A stretch of 10,198 nucleotides of DNA from Micrococcales bacterium. Lineage in GTDB: Bacteria; Actinomycetota; Actinomycetes; Actinomycetales; Microbacteriaceae. The DNA lies in assembly GCA_947441105.1 (NCBI GenBank), contig CANESN010000021.1, forward strand, positions 1 through 10,198. Direction: 5' to 3'. Made by a program: the position numbers and the translations under genes. Every line of letters starts with the position of its first letter. Positions within the stretch are counted from its first letter, which is position 1. The notes beneath the pieces were generated by a model that saw nothing but the letters and a program-made list of their open reading frames with translations, had not been told where the DNA came from and did no database searches. Shown in pieces: positions 754-7,531 of the stretch.

Positions 754-1132
754 TGCGCTTCCTAAGCCAGAGCAATCCAAGTATTGGAAGCAGTAGCGGG
801 ATAAAGGCATAACCCGCACCGAAATTCGACCAAACCGAAGGATGGGCAAAATACTGCGGCAAAGCCAAACTCAGCGACCCAACAGCTATCACACCCACAA
901 GTTCAAACCAGATCGTAAACAAAGCTACGCGCTGCCACTTTGGCTCCGGCTTTGAAAGCGAGTAGGTGGCCAGCAAATAGACCACGGCTGAGATTGCAGA
1001 GAGCGAATATGCCAGCGGAGCTTGGTCAAACTCACGAATTAGCTGGTAGCTAGCCCTAGCGGTAGCGGAGACTGCAAAGACTGCGTAGATAGCAATCAAC
1101 ACTCTTCCGACACCCAAGGATTGTTTTGGCAC
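746..1132 (-). CDS. Small four-helix integral membrane protein upstream of ribF, function unknown
   Basis: A 128-residue protein with four hydrophobic segments, at roughly 10-25, 38-60, 70-92 and 106-124, and a basic C-terminus (LRKRNA), so it should sit in the cytoplasmic membrane. I see no catalytic motif. The segment around 34-45 (EFDQAPLAYSLS) and the pattern WSNFGAGYAF before helix 4 resemble, from memory, a conserved actinobacterial membrane protein encoded just before ribF; no function is established that I know of. The start is a GTG without a Shine-Dalgarno sequence. A TANNNT element (TACACT, 1144-1139) lies exactly at -12 to -7 from it, which suggests a leaderless message. The stop overlaps the ribF start by 8 bases. 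The gene begins 20 bases after the PstS-like lipoprotein gene. Real gene: confident. Exact start: moderately sure. Confidence 0.8.
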   Translation of the reverse strand: MPKQSLGVGRVLIAIYAVFAVSATARASYQLIREFDQAPLAYSLSAISAVVYLLATYSLSKPEPKWQRVALFTIWFELVGVIAVGSLSLALPQYFAHPSVWSNFGAGYAFIPLLLPILGLLWLRKRNA

Positions 1133-1138
1133 CGGATA

Positions 1139-1144
1139 AGTGTA
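1139..1144 (-). promoter_or_regulatory. Possible -10 element for leaderless transcription into the membrane-protein/ribF pair
   Basis: TACACT fits the actinobacterial TANNNT -10 consensus and ends six bases before the GTG at 1132. That spacing puts the transcription start on the start codon. The GTG has no Shine-Dalgarno sequence, as expected for a leaderless gene. No convincing -35 is visible; it would fall in the last codons of the lipoprotein gene. This is inferred from spacing only. Confidence 0.35.
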
Positions 1145-1152
1145 ATTGAGAG

Positions 1153-2205
1153 CTACTGAGTTACCTCAGCATCGAGGTCGATGCTTGGGTTTCCAGCATC
1201 AATCAGAGCTGCGGCTGCGATTCGGATGTGCTCCGGTAGCGGAGATGAGACACCGGTGGCGACTACACCCTGGGCATCAAGACGCAGAAGGTAACGGGCG
1301 GTATTGCGAAGATCTACAGTGTCCTCACCGCAAAGACCCATCTTGATGGCATAAACAGGAGCGTATGGCACCAGAGCATCTACGGCACCCAGAAGCGGCT
1401 TCACTTCGTTTTCCTTGTTGTAGACAAAGTTCACGGTTTGCGCATCTAGGTCTTTGACCACATCAACCTGCGTACCTGCGGTCTGAATCAAACGAGCATC
1501 AGGAACCACGACACTTGCCAGATCTCCAGGAATGGTTGCGATATTCGCCAGTGGGTAACCGGTTGTTAGCGTGCTCGAAAAAGCAGTGATTCGAATCTCG
1601 CCGTCTGCCAGGGCGTAAAGCCTCTCAGACTCCAGACCTGGAGAATCTTCGATAAAACTCAAGTCGAGATCCGCCCCGATCTCGCCTTCTAGCCATGTCT
1701 CCATGGCATCTCTAGCAGGGCCTAGCGCAGATGGTGAAACAACAATTTCCTGGTCGGGCAAGATCGCGTATTCATTCAGCGCGACCATAGCTGGGTCTGA
1801 CCAGTTGGTAATTGCGCCAGAGAAGATTCCGGCAAGCGTCGGCGCATCAAGAGTGAGCTCGTAGTTATCGCCGACCATGAAGGAAATCACCGCTGCATCC
1901 ATCGCTACCGGCACGGTTAGGAACGGCTCGCATTTGAAGGACTCGTGATCGGTTATTTGAATGCCGCTTGCGGCCTCTTCAACTATGTTCAGGCTAATTG
2001 CACAGGCGTTGGTAATGCTGTCATTCCAGAAGCTTGAGACATCAAGCACAGACTCTGTGACCGAAACGTCTACAGCACTCTCGGGGCAGACCACGGTTCG
2101 TTCTGCCAACTCAACCAAAAGGGAGTCAGGCATTGGAGGGTCGCAGGCTGTCAAGGTTGCCAGGATTGCTCCCGACAGTGCGATTGCAGAAACTAAGCGG
2201 CGCAT
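1153..2205 (-). CDS. Divergent PstS-like substrate-binding lipoprotein lacking the phosphate-pocket motif
   Basis: A 350-residue exported lipoprotein. The signal peptide (RR near the start, hydrophobic 7-17) ends in the lipobox LTAC at 18-21, so Cys21 should be lipidated and the protein held on the outer face of the membrane. The fold is probably the two-lobed phosphate-binding-protein type: IFSGAITNWSDP at 127-138 matches the PstS signature (IYLGKITKWND in the neighbouring PstS). However, the region that aligns with the phosphate-binding RSDGSGTT reads SPSALGPA (157-164), so the Arg, Asp, Ser and Thr ligands are gone. The protein is also unusually acidic and has extra cysteines (40, 68, 92 and one near 295). 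It follows pstS after a 37-base hairpin. GGAGG at 2219-2215 precedes the ATG. It may bind another ligand, dock PstS to the transporter, or serve as a sensor; none of this is shown. Family assignment is fairly sure, phosphate binding doubtful. Confidence 0.82.
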   Translation of the reverse strand: MRRLVSAIALSGAILATLTACDPPMPDSLLVELAERTVVCPESAVDVSVTESVLDVSSFWNDSITNACAISLNIVEEAASGIQITDHESFKCEPFLTVPVAMDAAVISFMVGDNYELTLDAPTLAGIFSGAITNWSDPAMVALNEYAILPDQEIVVSPSALGPARDAMETWLEGEIGADLDLSFIEDSPGLESERLYALADGEIRITAFSSTLTTGYPLANIATIPGDLASVVVPDARLIQTAGTQVDVVKDLDAQTVNFVYNKENEVKPLLGAVDALVPYAPVYAIKMGLCGEDTVDLRNTARYLLRLDAQGVVATGVSSPLPEHIRIAAAALIDAGNPSIDLDAEVTQ

Positions 2206-2224
2206 TTACTTTCCCTCCAAATGG

Positions 2225-2261
2225 AACATCTGGGGCACGGAATTACCGCACCCCAGATGTT
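2225..2261 (-). terminator. Long intercistronic hairpin after pstS (terminator, attenuator or mRNA stabiliser)
   Basis: In the minus-strand transcript AACATCTGGGG (2261-2251) pairs perfectly with CCCCAGATGTT (2235-2225). The stem continues inward through U-G, G-U, C-G, G-C and G-C pairs to a five-base loop (UAAUU), giving 16 pairs. Only a weak U stretch follows (TTCCATTTGG), then the Shine-Dalgarno sequence of the lipoprotein gene, so it is not a textbook terminator. It more likely caps the pstS message against 3' decay and lets a fraction of transcription through, which would give much PstS and little lipoprotein. A 5'-end stabiliser role is also possible if the TAAAAT element just upstream is a promoter. 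Confidence 0.75.
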
Positions 2262-2268
2262 TTGAATC

Positions 2269-2276
2269 ATTTTATA
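2269..2276 (-). promoter_or_regulatory. Possible -10 element before the lipoprotein gene
   Basis: TATAAAAT at 2276-2269 contains two overlapping TANNNW hexamers just after the pstS stop codon. The predicted transcription start (about 2262) coincides with the first base of the hairpin at 2261. No clear -35 is visible; it would lie in the end of pstS. AT-rich spacer sequence can mimic this motif, so the call is weak. Confidence 0.25.
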
Positions 2277-2281
2277 TTGTT

Positions 2282-3298
2282 TTAGTCGACCTTGGAAACC
2301 AGCTTCAGAGCGGTGGTCTGGAACTTTCCAGATAGCGCTACGTAACCGACAGCTGCAGCCTTTGAAGGTGCACAGTCCTTGATGAAGTAGGTCAGGTACT
2401 CGCGAACAGCGTCAGCCTTCGCGGTGCCAGCCTTGGTTGGAGCGATTCCGTAAGAAACTAGCGACAGGTTGTAAGCGCCGTTTAGCTTCTTGTTGTAGTC
2501 GAATACAACCTCACCGGTGGCCTTCATCGAGGTAGCCTCAATGAATGCCTTAGAGTTTGCGATGGTTGGCTTTAGGAACTGGCCGGCACCGTTCTGTAGG
2601 TGTGCGATTGGTAGAGCGTTCTTGTTTGCATCCGCAAGGTCGATGTAACCGAAAGAGTTAGCGGTCGACTTGATGGTGGTTGCAACAGCAGAGTTACCGC
2701 TGGCACCAACACCGACAACACCAGTTGCTGCAGTCTTGAATGCGTCGCTGAATGCCCATGCGCTGCCAGCTACCTGCTTTAGGTAGTTGGTGAAGTTAGC
2801 GGTGGTACCAGAGCCGTCCGAACGGTAAACCGGGGTGATGGTCGCGTCTGGAAGAAGAGCCTTTGCACTCTTGTTCAAGTCGACAATCGCCTTGTCGTTC
2901 CACTTGGTGATCTTGCCCAGGTAGATGTCGCTGATCACTGCTGCGGTTAGGTTTAGGCGGGTAAGGCCTGCGATGTTGTAAGAGATAGCAATTGGTCCAC
3001 CGAGTAGAGGTACGTAGGTGAAGTTCTTTGGCTTGACTTCAGAAGGCTTGAAAATGATGTCAGATCCACCGAAGTCGCTAACGCCTTTCGAGTAGTCCGA
3101 ACGGCCAGTGGTTGAACCCTTGGAAACGTAAGTCACTTGGTGCGCGGTGTACGCAGCGGCACACTCGGTCTGAAGTGAAAGGGTGTAGCTAGCACCGGTA
3201 CCGGTGATGGTCTCTGCCATTGCAGCTGATCCGCCAAAAGCGGTTGCTGCGATTAGCGCTGCACCAGCGGAAATGCTGGCAATCTTGCTCAAACGCAT
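2282..3298 (-). CDS. pstS: Phosphate-binding protein PstS (secreted, no lipobox)
   Basis: The extracytoplasmic receptor of the Pst ABC importer; it captures inorganic phosphate and delivers it to PstC/PstA. It has 338 residues. A Sec signal peptide ends at AMA-E (28/29). The mature protein shows the phosphate ligands of the family: GTGASY at 33-38, GSTTG near 61-65, GGSD at 77-80 and RSDGSGTT at 159-166. The R159/D161/S163 spacing matches R135/D137/S139 of the E. coli protein. IYLGKITKWND lies at 125-135. There is no cysteine in the signal-peptide region (first Cys is 46), so it is not a lipoprotein, unlike many Gram-positive PstS proteins. Cys46 and the Cys in DCAPSK near the C-terminus could form a disulfide. 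AGGAG (3308-3304) lies five bases before the ATG. The gene has its own PHO box and promoter after pstB. Function is certain; the anchoring mode is open. Confidence 0.96.
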   Translation of the reverse strand: MRLSKIASISAGAALIAATAFGGSAAMAETITGTGASYTLSLQTECAAAYTAHQVTYVSKGSTTGRSDYSKGVSDFGGSDIIFKPSEVKPKNFTYVPLLGGPIAISYNIAGLTRLNLTAAVISDIYLGKITKWNDKAIVDLNKSAKALLPDATITPVYRSDGSGTTANFTNYLKQVAGSAWAFSDAFKTAATGVVGVGASGNSAVATTIKSTANSFGYIDLADANKNALPIAHLQNGAGQFLKPTIANSKAFIEATSMKATGEVVFDYNKKLNGAYNLSLVSYGIAPTKAGTAKADAVREYLTYFIKDCAPSKAAAVGYVALSGKFQTTALKLVSKVD

Positions 3299-3329
3299 TG
3301 TTTCTCCTTTTAGAAAGTCTGGATGACGG

Positions 3330-3335
3330 ATTGTA
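3330..3335 (-). promoter_or_regulatory. Candidate -10 element of the pstS promoter
   Basis: TACAAT fits TANNNT and is close to TATAAT. It lies about 32 bases downstream of the PHO box and would start a message near 3323, with a 5' leader of about 25 bases that carries the AGGAG ribosome site. GGGTTA (3358-3353) is at the -35 distance but is a poor -35, as is common in activator-dependent promoters. A second weak candidate, GTTAAT (3356-3351), lies closer to the PHO box. Confidence 0.45.
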
Positions 3336-3367
3336 TTCTCGAGTTCCAGGATTAACCCACCCTGTTC

Positions 3368-3389
3368 AGCAGGTTAACCAATGGTGAAC
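3368..3389 (-). promoter_or_regulatory. PHO box before pstS (two abutting 11-base direct repeats)
   Basis: On the minus strand GTTCACCATTG (3389-3379) is followed without a gap by GTTAACCTGCT (3378-3368). Tandem 11-base units beginning GTTCACC are the PhoP-binding PHO-box pattern known from Streptomyces and related actinobacteria. The site starts two bases after the pstB stop codon, so pstS is probably induced by phosphate starvation independently of readthrough from pstB. The regulator genes (phoP/phoR, phoU) are not in the window. Confidence 0.78.
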
Positions 3390-3390
3390 A

Positions 3391-4167
3391 TCAACCAAAT
3401 CGTCCATTTACATACTCGTTTGTACGGTCGTCCTTTGGACGCATAAAGACATTCTCAGTGGTGTCAAATTCGACAACCTCGCCTGGGTTTCCGTTCTCGG
3501 AAAGGAAGAATGCTGTCGAGTCAGCAACGCGCTGAGCCTGTTGCATGTTGTGGGTAACGATGACGATGGTCATGTTCTCCTTCAGCTCCAGGATGGTCTC
3601 CTCGATGCGGCGAGTGGATCCTGGGTCAAGAGCCGAACAAGGCTCGTCCATCAATAGCACATTCGGGTCCATGGCCAATGATCTTGCGATGCATAGACGC
3701 TGCTGCTGGCCACCGGAGAGCGATAGTGCAGGCTCAGAAAGACGGTCCTTGACTTCGTTCCACATCGACGCGCGCTGGAGCGACGTCTCAACCAATCCAT
3801 CGCCATCCTCAATCTTGCGACCTGAGAGCTTTAGGCCGGACAGGATGTTCTCCCTGATTGTCATAGTAGGAAACGGGTTTGGCTTCTGGAACACCATGCC
3901 GATGTTGATGCGAACATTCACCGGGTCCACCGCCTGAGCGTAAATGTCCTCGCCGTTTAGCAAAACTTGACCGCTGAGGCCAGCGCTTGGGATGAGCTCG
4001 TGCATGCGGTTCAGGGTGCGGATAAAGGTTGACTTACCGCAACCGGATGGTCCGATTAGCGCGGTGACGTGATTGTTCTGGAACTGCAAGGAGACATCAC
4101 GCAGAACGTGGCGCTCACCAAACCAAACATTGATATCCTTGGTCTCTAGGTGATTGAGGTTGCTCAT
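3391..4167 (-). CDS. pstB: Phosphate import ATP-binding protein PstB
   Basis: The cytoplasmic ATPase of the Pst phosphate importer; two copies drive transport through PstC/PstA. It has 258 residues, normal for the family, with every ABC motif intact: Walker [10 protein letters not shown] at 39-47, Q-loop Gln94 in FQKPNPFP, signature LSGGQQQR at 150-157, Walker B LLMDEP with Asp174/Glu175, D-loop ALDP at 179-182, and switch His206 in THN. The FQKPNPFP form and the C-terminal NEYVNGRFG are typical of PstB and not of other ABC ATPases. The ATG shares one base with the pstA stop codon (TAATG) and has AGGAG upstream, so it is translationally coupled to pstA. Nothing is degenerate. Confidence 0.97.
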
Positions 4168-5249
4168 TATTTCTTTCTCCTCTTTGGCTTTGAGCCGACG
4201 CGAGTGGCTGAAGCTACACGCGCTCCGACGAACAGGATTCCAACAAAGATCAACAGCACAAGAGCTGCTCCCCAGGCACGCTGCAAGCTTGTTGCATCTC
4301 CTAGGTATAGGAAGTTGTAGATGTAGGTAGGCAGGGTTGCCATTCCGCCTGCCAATGGGTTCGCGTTGGTTTCGTTGGCAATGACCGCAGTCAAGATCAG
4401 CGGAGCCGTCTCACCAATGATTCGAGCCACACCCAAAAGCACAGCGGTTACGATTCCAGACTTCGCAGCTGGAAGAGTAACCATGAAGAATGCCTTGTAG
4501 CTTGGAGCGCCCAGAGCTAGCGCTCCGTTGCGCAGTTCACTCGGAACCAAACGCAGCGATTCTTCGGCAACACGCGAGATGGTAGGAAGCATTAGCGGGA
4601 TAAGCGAAAGCGATGCCATGACGCCCACCTGGCTAGACCAGCCGCTAACAATCAACATTGAGTAGATGAACAGACCCGCCACAACCGAAGGCAAACCAGC
4701 TAGGGCCTGTAGCAAAGTGCGCACTACCCCCCTGGCACCGTCGCGAGTCTCGGTTAGGTAAACAGCGGTTGCAATAGCCAGCGGAACTGTAATGACGGTC
4801 GTGATTCCGGTAATGATTACGGAACCAAGAATCGCGTGACCCGCTCCACCAATCTCAAGTCCGGTTGTTCCGGTGATGTAGCGATTGTTTTGGTAGATAA
4901 AGTGCGGTGAAAGCGCGGCCGCGCCTTCGGAGATAACGCTCCAGATAACCGATGCTAAAAGCACCAGCACGAAGGTCGAGAAGAAGAAGGTGACGACCAT
5001 TAATAGGCCATCGTTGACGCCCTTGCGACCGTAGGAGTAAAAACCTGCCCATGCACCAAAGGCCAACTGAATCGGCAAGAAGATTGTTAACAGTGCCGCC
5101 ATGAAGTCAAGCTGCAACCCAAGCCAAGCCGCCACAAAGATTGCTGCTGGAACCAAAGATGTGATCCAAGAGGCAAAACGAACCCGGCTTCCCAGCTTCT
5201 CCCAGGGAGCAGCGTTCTTTGGTCTTGGCTGTGCAAGTGTGTCGGTCAT
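4167..5249 (-). CDS. pstA: Phosphate ABC transporter permease PstA
   Basis: One of the two membrane subunits forming the phosphate channel, in the cytoplasmic membrane. It has 360 residues from the ATG at 5249. That start overlaps the pstC stop as ATGA and has GGAGG (5259-5255) five bases upstream; a TTG at 5261 would lie on this ribosome site and is rejected. The core permease domain spans roughly 136-345 and contains the coupling-loop region [10 protein letters not shown] (238-247) followed by RIIGETAPL (276-284), characteristic of PstA. The first 110 residues add two or three hydrophobic segments (about 27-45, 49-72 and 82-106), making it longer than the roughly 290-300-residue E. coli type; long forms occur in actinobacteria. 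The very basic tail SKPKRRKK should be cytoplasmic. Confidence 0.95.
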
Positions 5250-6220
5250 AGCTTCCTCCAAGGCTGAGCCTTAGCAACGATGTAAGAGGCGATCGTGTTG
5301 ACAATCAAAGTCACTACGAACAGCACCACACCGGCGGCGAGTAGGGCAGAAAGTTCGGTGTCTAGCGCTTCGTTGAATCGAGCTAGCACCAGCGATGCGA
5401 CCGCACCACCGGATGGCTCAAGAATCTTGAACCAGTTGAAATCGTCGAAGGTTAGGTTCAGTACGAAGAAGATTGCCACGGTCTCACCCATAGCACGCCC
5501 AAGAGCCAAAAGCACTCCACCGACGATTCCGCCGGATGCGGTAGGCAGAATCACCTTGCGGAAGATGGACTCCCTGGTGCCACCAAGAGCCATTGCACCC
5601 TTGATGATTTCCTGATCCATCTGAGAGAAGATCTCTCGGGTGATCGAAGCGATAATCGGCACGATCATTACAGCAATTACTAGCGATGCAATAAATGGCG
5701 AGCGCAGGAAGATGTCCACCGCGTTGCTGAAAATTGGGATAAAGCCGAGTGCCTCGCTTAGCATCCTTCCCCATTCGGCAGCTACCGGGGAGAAGACACC
5801 CAAGCCCCATAGTCCGATCACGATCGAAGGGATGGCGGCCAACAGGTCAACGACTACGGTTGCCACCTTGGCCAAACGCTCAGGCGCAATGAACGAGATG
5901 AAATAGGAAATTGAAATGGCCATCGGAACTGCAAGTGCCACACCAATTGCGGCGATAAGGAGTGATCCATAAAGCATTGGCCCCAGGTGGAAAATCTGTG
6001 GGTCAGTGGTTGAGTTCCAGCCCGCTCCAAAGATGAAGTTCACCACGCCTTGAGATTCAAAAGCCGGCCAGGCGCGAAGCATCAAGAAGAACAGAATTGC
6101 GGCTACCAAAACGAATGAGGAATAGCCGGCTGCCTTGGCAACCGCAAAGAACACTTTGTCCGCGGTGCGAGATGGCTTGCTGCGCAGCTTTAGGCGCTTT
6201 GGCGCGACATCATTTGACAT
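5246..6220 (-). CDS. pstC: Phosphate ABC transporter permease PstC
   Basis: The partner of PstA in the phosphate channel. From the ATG at 6220 it has 324 residues, with a basic cytoplasmic N-terminus (about residues 8-22) and six hydrophobic segments from about 33 onward. The coupling loop EIIKGAMALGGTRE (204-217) and GRAMGETVA (241-249) are diagnostic for PstC. The start is uncertain. A GTG at 6256 would add 12 residues, but it lies only four bases from the PHO box and lacks a Shine-Dalgarno sequence; it would work only as a leaderless start using TAACCT inside the PHO box as -10. The ATG at 6220 has a weak GAGA ribosome site and leaves room for a promoter, so I prefer it. pstC leads the pst operon, and its stop overlaps the pstA start by 4 bases. 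Confidence 0.94.
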   Translation of the reverse strand: MSNDVAPKRLKLRSKPSRTADKVFFAVAKAAGYSSFVLVAAILFFLMLRAWPAFESQGVVNFIFGAGWNSTTDPQIFHLGPMLYGSLLIAAIGVALAVPMAISISYFISFIAPERLAKVATVVVDLLAAIPSIVIGLWGLGVFSPVAAEWGRMLSEALGFIPIFSNAVDIFLRSPFIASLVIAVMIVPIIASITREIFSQMDQEIIKGAMALGGTRESIFRKVILPTASGGIVGGVLLALGRAMGETVAIFFVLNLTFDDFNWFKILEPSGGAVASLVLARFNEALDTELSALLAAGVVLFVVTLIVNTIASYIVAKAQPWRKL

Positions 6221-6260
6221 GTTCTCTAGCGTGGAGTCTGTGGGTTGAATTTCCACGAAC

Positions 6261-6282
6261 AGAAGGTTAACGAAAGGTTAAC
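6261..6282 (-). promoter_or_regulatory. PHO box before pstC (two abutting 11-base direct repeats)
   Basis: On the minus strand GTTAACCTTTC (6282-6272) is followed directly by GTTAACCTTCT (6271-6261); the units share their first nine bases. A third partial unit starting GTTC may follow at 6260. The 11-base period and GTTAACC core match the actinobacterial PHO-box pattern and the site before pstS. It fills most of the 38-base gap between the upstream membrane-protein gene and pstC (GTG reading), or of the 74 bases to the preferred ATG. It probably binds the phosphate-starvation regulator PhoP. Confidence 0.78.
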
Positions 6283-6294
6283 TACGAGCGAGAG

Positions 6295-6672
6295 TTACGA
6301 GAATGAAACTGGAGTTCCACTCCAGATTTGTTGCATGCGAACCAGCATTACTGTCACAGTCAAGATTCCAGCCCCCATAACCACAGTAGACCAGCGATTG
6401 CGGTCAATAAGTGCCCAAAGCGCTGCTGCTAATGGCACCATTAGCGCCACAATCAAATAGCCGAAGAACTCCCAGGTGTCGAGATTGGCCCGCTCCCCCA
6501 AAATCACCAGAGTGATCGATGCAATTAGCTGCATCAGTAATCCGAATTCGCTACCGGCAACCAGTGCCAACGAGAAGCCAGATGGCTTGCGACCGATCAG
6601 TCCCATTACAACCAGCAATAACCCAGCTACAACACCAAACCAGAGTTGGGCCTGGTACCACCACTCAACCAT
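6295..6672 (-). CDS. Small four-helix integral membrane protein downstream of truB, function unknown
   Basis: A 125-residue protein with four hydrophobic segments at about 8-27, 34-59, 69-89 and 95-112; the conserved-looking stretch ALIDRNRWSTVV (87-98) sits between helices 3 and 4. It should lie in the cytoplasmic membrane. I see no enzymatic motif. From memory it resembles a short actinobacterial membrane protein that follows truB, but no role is known to me. The start chosen is the ATG at 6672, because GGAGG (6683-6679) lies six bases upstream; an in-frame start at 6711 lies deeper inside truB and lacks that support. The gene overlaps the truB end by 8 bases (ATGGTTGA). The same kind of 8-base overlap joins the other small membrane protein to ribF. 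The stop codon is 12 bases before the pstC PHO box. Confidence 0.82.
   Translation of the reverse strand: MVEWWYQAQLWFGVVAGLLLVVMGLIGRKPSGFSLALVAGSEFGLLMQLIASITLVILGERANLDTWEFFGYLIVALMVPLAAALWALIDRNRWSTVVMGAGILTVTVMLVRMQQIWSGTPVSFS
6301..6325 (-). terminator. Weak terminator-like hairpin in the 3' end of the membrane-protein gene
   Basis: In the minus-strand transcript CTGGAGT (6325-6319) pairs with ACTCCAG (6315-6309) around a GGA loop, and UUUCAUUC follows. This lies in the last ten codons of the gene, just before the pstC PHO box. It could partly end transcription of the infB-truB operon and insulate the pst genes. Seven pairs and an interrupted U stretch make it weak; it may be chance within coding sequence. 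Confidence 0.35.
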
Positions 6673-7531
6673 TGAAGACCTCCGGGAATACGACAACTGA
6701 TTTGAGCTCATTCCCGACCGGCTCTAGCACGGCTAGCAGCTCTGAGTTCCAGGTGGCAGCGACGATCCCATTTGCTTCTGAGTTAATGCGCTTGCCGTGA
6801 ACAATATCCTGAGCTTGAGCCTCAGTTAGCTCGATGGCTGGAAACAGCTTTAGCACTGCTTCACTAAGTGGAATCACAACTGGTGGCTTATCGATTTCGG
6901 TGGCGTGAGCCAAATCGAAGTTGCCGATCTTGGTCCTTCGCAACACCGTCAGATGACCGCCAACACCTAAGGCTGCACCAATGTCACGAGCGAGTGCTCG
7001 GATGTAGGTGCCGGAAGAACAGTCAACCACGACATCGAAATCTAGAAAGTCTTGTACTTGTCTGAGGTCAGATGTCCTTTGAAAAGTGGAAACCCTAACC
7101 TGGCGGCCCTTTAGCTCAACCTCTTGGCCTTCACGCACCAGGTCATAAGCACGTTTGCCTTCGACCTTGATTGCACTGACCGATGATGGAACCTGTGTTA
7201 TTTCACCGGTCAGTTTTGCAATCTCAGCATCGATCTGCTCTTTGGTGACCGCTAGTGCGGAAGCTGAGGAAAGGATCTCGCCTTCCGCATCGTCCGTGTG
7301 GGTTGAAGCGCCCAGGCGAATGGTTGCGATGTACTGCTTATCGCTACCGGAAATGAACTGCAGCAACTTTGTGCCGCCATCAACGCCTAGAACCAAAAGG
7401 CCGGTGGCCATTGGGTCCAAAGTGCCGGCGTGACCGATTTTTCTGGTGCCCAAAATGCCGCGCAGCTTTGCAACCACGTCGTGGCTGGTCCAACCCTGCT
7501 GCTTATCGATCAGCACCAGTGCGGAAGGCAT
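6665..7531 (-). CDS. truB: tRNA pseudouridine(55) synthase TruB
   Basis: Isomerises U55 to pseudouridine in the T-loop of tRNAs in the cytoplasm. It has 288 residues. The N-terminus LIDKQQGWTSHDVV (7-20) and the catalytic motif GHAGTLDPMATG (33-44), with nucleophile Asp39, define the family. YIRALARDIG lies in the second half of the catalytic domain. The C-terminal part, from about 225, is the short RNA-binding extension of the actinobacterial form (LFPAIELTEAQAQDIVHGKRI region). The ATG shares one base with the rbfA stop (TAATG) and has GGAAGAG just upstream. The end overlaps the following membrane-protein gene by 8 bases. Nothing is truncated. Confidence 0.96.
   Translation of the reverse strand: MPSALVLIDKQQGWTSHDVVAKLRGILGTRKIGHAGTLDPMATGLLVLGVDGGTKLLQFISGSDKQYIATIRLGASTHTDDAEGEILSSASALAVTKEQIDAEIAKLTGEITQVPSSVSAIKVEGKRAYDLVREGQEVELKGRQVRVSTFQRTSDLRQVQDFLDFDVVVDCSSGTYIRALARDIGAALGVGGHLTVLRRTKIGNFDLAHATEIDKPPVVIPLSEAVLKLFPAIELTEAQAQDIVHGKRINSEANGIVAATWNSELLAVLEPVGNELKSVVVFPEVFNG

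Follow-up and report, generated by a model that had tools for sequence, protein, structure and literature searches.

What might a PstS-like protein without a phosphate pocket do beside an intact PstS? This question is raised by a pst operon in a stretch of 10,198 nt (the window), where the gene of a soluble phosphate-binding protein is followed by that of a related lipoprotein, here called X. On the minus strand the gene order is infB, rbfA, truB, h138, pstC, pstA, pstB, pstS, X, h128, and ribF (Table 1), of which infB, rbfA, truB, and ribF were assigned by reading the sequence and pstC, pstA, and pstB by NCBI curated cutoffs. The assembly has a completeness of 50.66%. Two small membrane proteins, h128 (746-1132) and h138 (6295-6711), are situated on either side of the cassette and occupy the same positions in many relatives; no family above cutoff was found for either in Pfam and NCBIfam profile searches.

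Table 1. Features annotated in the window.
Feature	Position	Strand	Evidence
X: 350-aa lipoprotein with PstS fold and no phosphate site	1153..2205	-	ORF with ATG start, Pfam match, AF2 model, homologue alignment
X signal peptide, aa 1-20, lipobox LTA-C at end	2146..2205	-	sequence; lipobox in 68/68 distinct X
X Cys21 (putative lipid carrier) and conserved membrane-proximal linker C-x-P-P-x-P, aa 21-26	2128..2145	-	sequence, conservation
pstS-X intergenic hairpin, no T-run behind	2226..2260	-	-30.6 kcal/mol, z -5.4
pstS: 338-aa PstS, not lipidated, phosphate site intact	2282..3298	-	sequence, alignment, structure model
PHO-box-like 11-nt direct repeats 5' of pstS	3346..3389	-	repeat search
pstB	3391..4167	-	TIGR00972 above cutoff
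pstA	4167..5261	-	TIGR00974 above cutoff
pstC	5246..6256	-	TIGR02138 above cutoff; GTG start assigned mechanically
PHO-box-like 11-nt direct repeats 5' of pstC	6250..6282	-	read by eye, window only

The X frame has an ATG start, a length of 350 aa, and a signal peptide, and the elements that an earlier note on this DNA had read in it, the lipobox (LTA-C21), the PstS signature IFSGAITNWSDP, and SPSALGPA, are all present. X matches Pfam PBP_like_2 (37.4 bits, cutoff 27) and falls far under the cutoff of the curated PstS model TIGR00975 of NCBIfam (45 versus 205 bits), which the neighbouring PstS misses narrowly with 196.7 bits. According to profile and AF2 model, the two-lobed binding-protein fold of PstS is retained. 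In a profile-profile alignment (E 6e-18), RSDGSGTT of the neighbouring PstS is placed opposite SPSALGPA of X, as expected from the earlier claim that the main phosphate ligands are absent, and the loss proved wider than claimed: conservation is also missing from the ligand loop of the first lobe, and 63/63 X sequences, that of the window included, have lost the helix with the Ser/Gly ligands (S62 and G65 of PstS). This helix is likewise missing from the AF2 model of X, in contrast to the PstS model, which has it at 62-70. X thus shares the fold with the PstS of PstSCAB systems (TIGR00975, PBP_like_2) and differs from it in the unconserved ligands and the missing helix, and in having beside it another PstS, which is soluble and has a full site.

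The phosphate-ligand positions of E. coli PstS were mapped onto X and PstS by alignment. Across 66 partner PstS, the entropies of nine such columns fall within the 0-3rd percentile; of the same nine, two are deleted throughout the 63 X and seven are found at the 30th-91st percentile. Besides the deleted helix, 7 of 10 other ligand columns examined in X reach the 68th-91st percentile of column entropy, and a smaller alignment of 28 X versus 28 PstS gave an agreeing picture. The most conserved X-specific residues comprise the linker, Cys40, Cys68, Glu35, Arg308, Gln312, Gly313, and Arg328, none of them an old ligand position, and are located in the linker and the C-terminal helices. The linker residues, the Cys pair, and Arg/Gln are invariant across three families. 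The conservation alignment covers 63 of 68 distinct X, five truncated or split copies being left out; in at least one case, the draft contig L094, the X reading frame is interrupted and split over two frames. The 63 long copies, in which neither the linker residues nor the Cys pair vary, rule out a mere pseudogene. Judged from its sequence, X fails the tests for a phosphate binder.

The adjoining gene encodes a true soluble PstS, as had been claimed, with its ligand residues kept and an AxA signal peptide devoid of a lipobox. The same division is found in other pairs: after removal of duplicates by the PstS C-terminus, 68 of 150 loci with the pair were kept, and a lipobox was observed in 68/68 distinct X, followed by C-x-P-P-x-P (in one variant C-A-S-P-M-P-P), and in 0/66 readable partner PstS. 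The two unreadable partners are cut at the contig start (L051) or represented by a longer copy, L190, without lipobox (L176). A C-terminal transmembrane (TM) stretch was looked for in the partner PstS read and none was found, the highest 19-residue hydropathy being 1.7 versus 2.7-3.2 in a long PstS type. From its lipobox, X is predicted to be lipidated. In the window's genus, PstS located away from X carries a lipobox in 11/11 loci (L030-L037, L039, L040, and L046), among them the second PstS of the two genomes with both systems (G007 and G020). A third kind of PstS, 520-560 aa in length, occurs in the sister genus with a C-terminal TM segment in 7/7 full-length copies; an eighth, L148, is cut. 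In this third Pst type (L134, L135, L136, L137, L141, L142, and L143) pstA is followed by the long PstS, and L134, L136, and L137 encode an additional protein of approximately 800 aa with a hydrophobic C-terminal segment and a weak PstS-profile match (26-28 bits).

Linkage of X to pstCAB holds across species. Compared with a close relative (L050), the window shows 90% identity over 1-1114; per 100 nt, most values are 86-100% as far as h138 and 86-98% beginning with h128, whereas the stretch reaching from pstC through X drops to 45-84% between flanks of about 90-95%. The flank proteins InfB, TruB, RibF, and h128 are 98, 93, 97, and 89% identical, as opposed to 73, 71, 84, 56, and 40% for PstC, PstA, PstB, PstS, and X. 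Because the divergence is confined to pstC to X between highly similar flanks, this segment (window 1115-6295, L050:3900-9060) is read as exchanged in one block between near relatives; the swap covers the whole cassette. Within the swapped block PstS and X diverge most, which could reflect selection on surface proteins.

Four genomes (G424, G462, G467, and G478) lack pstS in the operon, which runs pstC-pstA-pstB-X, and have a soluble-type pstS on a separate contig, where the stretch read contains no further pst gene. Among the three of these genomes compared, the neighbours of pstS are the same in G424 and G467 and different in G478, and at least two relocation events are therefore likely. A mirror test, corrected for TruB, RibF, and RbfA, was run on the 19 loci, out of 49 named ones, in which all nine genes are present. 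Partial correlations of X were 0.86 with PstS, 0.83 with PstB, 0.82 with PstC, and 0.79 with PstA (p 0.0005 each), versus 0.09 (p 0.28) with the other neighbour, h128, which lacks co-divergence with pst. The test shows joint inheritance of X with pst and cannot separate contact from it. X diverges fastest of the nine genes (mean distance 1.13 versus 0.88 for PstS and 0.21 for PstB). Taken together, these data show that one type of Pst cassette has a conserved fifth component, X.

In the family survey, X was found in 14/398 genomes belonging to 2/85 genera. With a cut of 278 bits or more for soluble-type PstS, chosen after the gap in scores was visible, such a PstS is present in 58/67 genomes of the sister genus, and 56 of these 58 carry X (E<=1e-30), as compared to 0/9 genomes without such a PstS; the two exceptions, G446 and G461, are cut short at this place by a contig end, which in G446 falls behind residue 40 of X. 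In the window's genus, the soluble type occurs in 7/22 genomes, each of which has X, as opposed to 0/15 of the others at E<=1e-30. One genome of this genus with lipidated PstS (G016) contains an X-like C-terminal fragment at a contig end (L258:6777-7367, E 1.4e-29), whose neighbours read like glycerol kinase and glycerol-3-phosphate dehydrogenase genes.

Among 394 genomes of the class, 132 match at E<=1e-20 and only 14 reach 175 bits or more, the next best scoring 95; in this survey, as in that of the family, at most five candidates per genome were scored and misses are possible. These 14 are the window's own genome, 11 of family f48, and two of f52. All 13 outside the window's family have the order pstC-A-B-S-X and a non-lipidated PstS. 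Ten weaker loci were read, nine of which have a readable lipobox and no X; for the tenth, L202, the excessive length of the ORF prevents a judgement. In a phylum sample of 396 genomes searched at E<=1e-40, X was detected in the window's own genome and in none of the other 395.

By score, 15 genomes of the class survey contain soluble-type PstS and 13 of them X, the exceptions being G742 of f41, a family that we assume may be the Nanopelagicaceae, and G833 of f52; conversely, G545 has X with a PstS of only 271 bits. In seven more f41 genomes, whose loci were read and found free of X, the soluble PstS is more distant, with 237-271 bits. In all X-less loci read, those of the seven genomes, G742, and G833, PstS lacks a lipobox and a TM segment; at L240, L243, and L244 the neighbours were identified by label. 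The PstS of G742 and G833 branch, with weak support, among X-associated PstS. Soluble PstS can therefore do without X in these genomes, and X is an addition to such systems or was lost from them. In the f41 genome G592 a tandem PstS pair was observed (L240:5405-7728), one member with a cleavable-looking signal peptide and the other with an N-terminus resembling an uncleaved membrane anchor, which is possibly another way of splitting the same duties.

We infer that the window's genus (g1) and its sister genus (g26) are Rhodoluna and Aquiluna. These are sister genera of the Luna-1 group, both of which have pst genes and genome sizes of about 1.4-1.5 Mb (PMC12422013), and a pocketless PstS goes unmentioned in the section of that paper on nutrient uptake. 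The same source and record titles give a hint that the X-bearing small-genome bacteria may live in freshwater (lakes and ponds).

In the trees, X groups as a clade of its own (support 100), which falls outside the one comprising all soluble PstS with or without X (support 95 and 97 in two trees); four rows, three weak matches of 800 aa and one over-long ORF, were left out. A recent tandem duplication of the neighbouring PstS is ruled out as the origin of X by this topology. Since X on the one hand and soluble PstS on the other are single clades, the number of independent events behind the lipobox pattern may be small. With lipidated PstS, X shares the lipid Cys (33/33 lipidated rows), Trp60 (16/28 X), and Gln312 (28/28 X); Trp and Gln may be ancestral, as they occur in the TM-anchored PstS type too. 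Cys40 and Cys68 are common to X and 9/13 members of one lipidated PstS subgroup. The N-terminal alignment with soluble PstS is ambiguous, placing Cys68 or Trp60 opposite PstS Cys46 depending on the rows included, and the tree is compatible with joining X to soluble (86) or to lipidated PstS (97). A descent of X from canonical lipidated PstS would fit the shared Cys residues without being proved by them.

The claim that the cluster is phosphate-regulated found support in PHO-box-like repeats with 11-nt spacing, which precede pstC and pstS in the window. They were detected upstream of 47/66 pstS, in 0/66 shuffled sequences (one shuffle each), and upstream of 0/68 X. Since such repeats precede pstC and pstS and never X, X is probably transcribed from the pstS and pstC promoters. 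Under the same rule, one of the four relocated pstS has a repeat pair. Due to the overlap of the repeats with the GTG, an ATG at about 6220 is more likely to be the start of pstC. Folding of 66 pstS-X gaps gave energies of -26.9 kcal/mol or lower in 55 and of only -12.1 to -0.9 kcal/mol in the 11 f48-type gaps. The strong hairpins are conserved in place and very different in sequence, and absent in the f48-type operons. Intergenic hairpins of this kind usually favour the upstream message, and PstS is therefore probably made in excess over X. If so, this suggests that X is unable to hold all PstS at once.

Docking of soluble PstS at the transporter explains most of these observations, and we consider it an even call that X is a fifth, non-transporting Pst subunit, i.e., a pocketless PstS-fold lipoprotein acting as a fixed membrane partner of PstS. 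Having given up phosphate binding, X would be placed on the outer membrane face beside PstC/PstA, held by its lipid and the short Pro-rich linker, and would keep phosphate-loaded PstS at the transporter mouth of a single-membrane cell. Lipid anchor and phosphate site, normally in one protein, would be divided between X and PstS. Contacts of X with PstS and PstCA, and an effect on uptake, are thereby postulated. Somewhat more tentatively, we propose a five-component Pst importer of single-membrane bacteria, in which soluble PstS carries phosphate, the fixed lipoprotein recruits it, and a mobile pool is thereby able to work without an outer membrane. Of the three suggestions of the earlier note, a ligand other than phosphate, docking, and sensing of PstS loading, docking is the most supported, through the lipobox pattern over 68 pairs, the conserved linker, the exchange as one cassette, and the retention of X with pstCAB when pstS moved; it stands as a proposal. 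The co-occurrence with soluble-type PstS in both genera speaks for it, the nine f41 and f52 genomes with soluble PstS and no X against it.

The main rival is a pseudo-binding protein that sits permanently on PstCA as gate, cap, or sensor for Pho signalling without binding PstS. The kept PstS fold, the persistence of X with pstCAB even where no pstS is nearby, and correlations of X with PstB and PstC that nearly equal that with PstS are in agreement with such a role; however, in the two fully surveyed genera X occurs only together with soluble-type PstS (the G016 fragment apart), which a pure gate would not need, and we regard it as rather unlikely. An extracytoplasmic folding or quality-control factor for soluble PstS would account for the shared operon and the tight co-occurrence, and it is also favoured by the Cys pair that soluble PstS has of its own, kept in 64/66 and jointly lost in two. 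Yet X retains a whole binding-protein fold and a lipobox and, on separation, stays with pstCAB and not with pstS, which renders this role improbable.

Fold, lipobox, and transporter operon would also suit a working binding protein that delivers another ligand to the same PstCAB. The earlier suggestion of another oxyanion or an organic ligand lost ground in the homologue comparison, since the ligand helix is deleted, most old ligand-site columns are variable, and X-specific conservation is found in the linker and C-terminal helices instead; we judge it quite improbable. Finally, the fast divergence of X and the swapping of the whole cassette between close relatives are reminiscent of a surface protein under diversifying selection, a decoy or receptor for phage or grazers associated with pst by chance. 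Considering the residues invariant over three families and the association with soluble PstS, this reading appears highly improbable.

Compared with known systems, the docking role proposed for X has partial precedents. LpqW of mycobacteria, an SBP-derived lipoprotein that probably acts without transport, resembles X in this respect and presumably differs in belonging to another SBP family and lacking a transporter operon. The mycobacterial SBP-like lipoproteins LpqZ and FecB are described as orphans without ABC transporter that partner arabinosyltransferases (PMC12802301); as in X, where this is proposed, the binding-protein fold has moved from ligand to protein partnership and conservation lies away from the cleft, whereas X is encoded in its own pst operon, with ABC transporter genes as neighbours, beside a working-type binding protein. 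In Streptomyces, PstS is attached to the membrane and subsequently released in a free form that shows no phosphate binding (PMC7866108). Like the PstS of the window it is an actinobacterial PstS free of the membrane; unlike it, the latter lacks a lipobox from the start and is accompanied by a separate pocketless lipoprotein. As far as these sources describe them, both cases are precedents and neither matches the PstS/X arrangement. Searches of the open-licence literature with a few term combinations turned up no account of what such a pair does, in agreement with the earlier note.

Genes annotated as PstS may thus be devoid of a phosphate site, which calls for caution. In single-membrane bacteria, binding proteins are expected to be anchored in cis or otherwise lost. 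The PstS/X cassette suggests another answer for small-genome bacteria, probably of lakes and ponds, in which a degenerate sister protein provides the anchor in trans, so that two jobs of one protein, anchoring and catching phosphate, may have been split between two. The use of an unanchored binding protein by a Gram-positive-type cell becomes directly testable.
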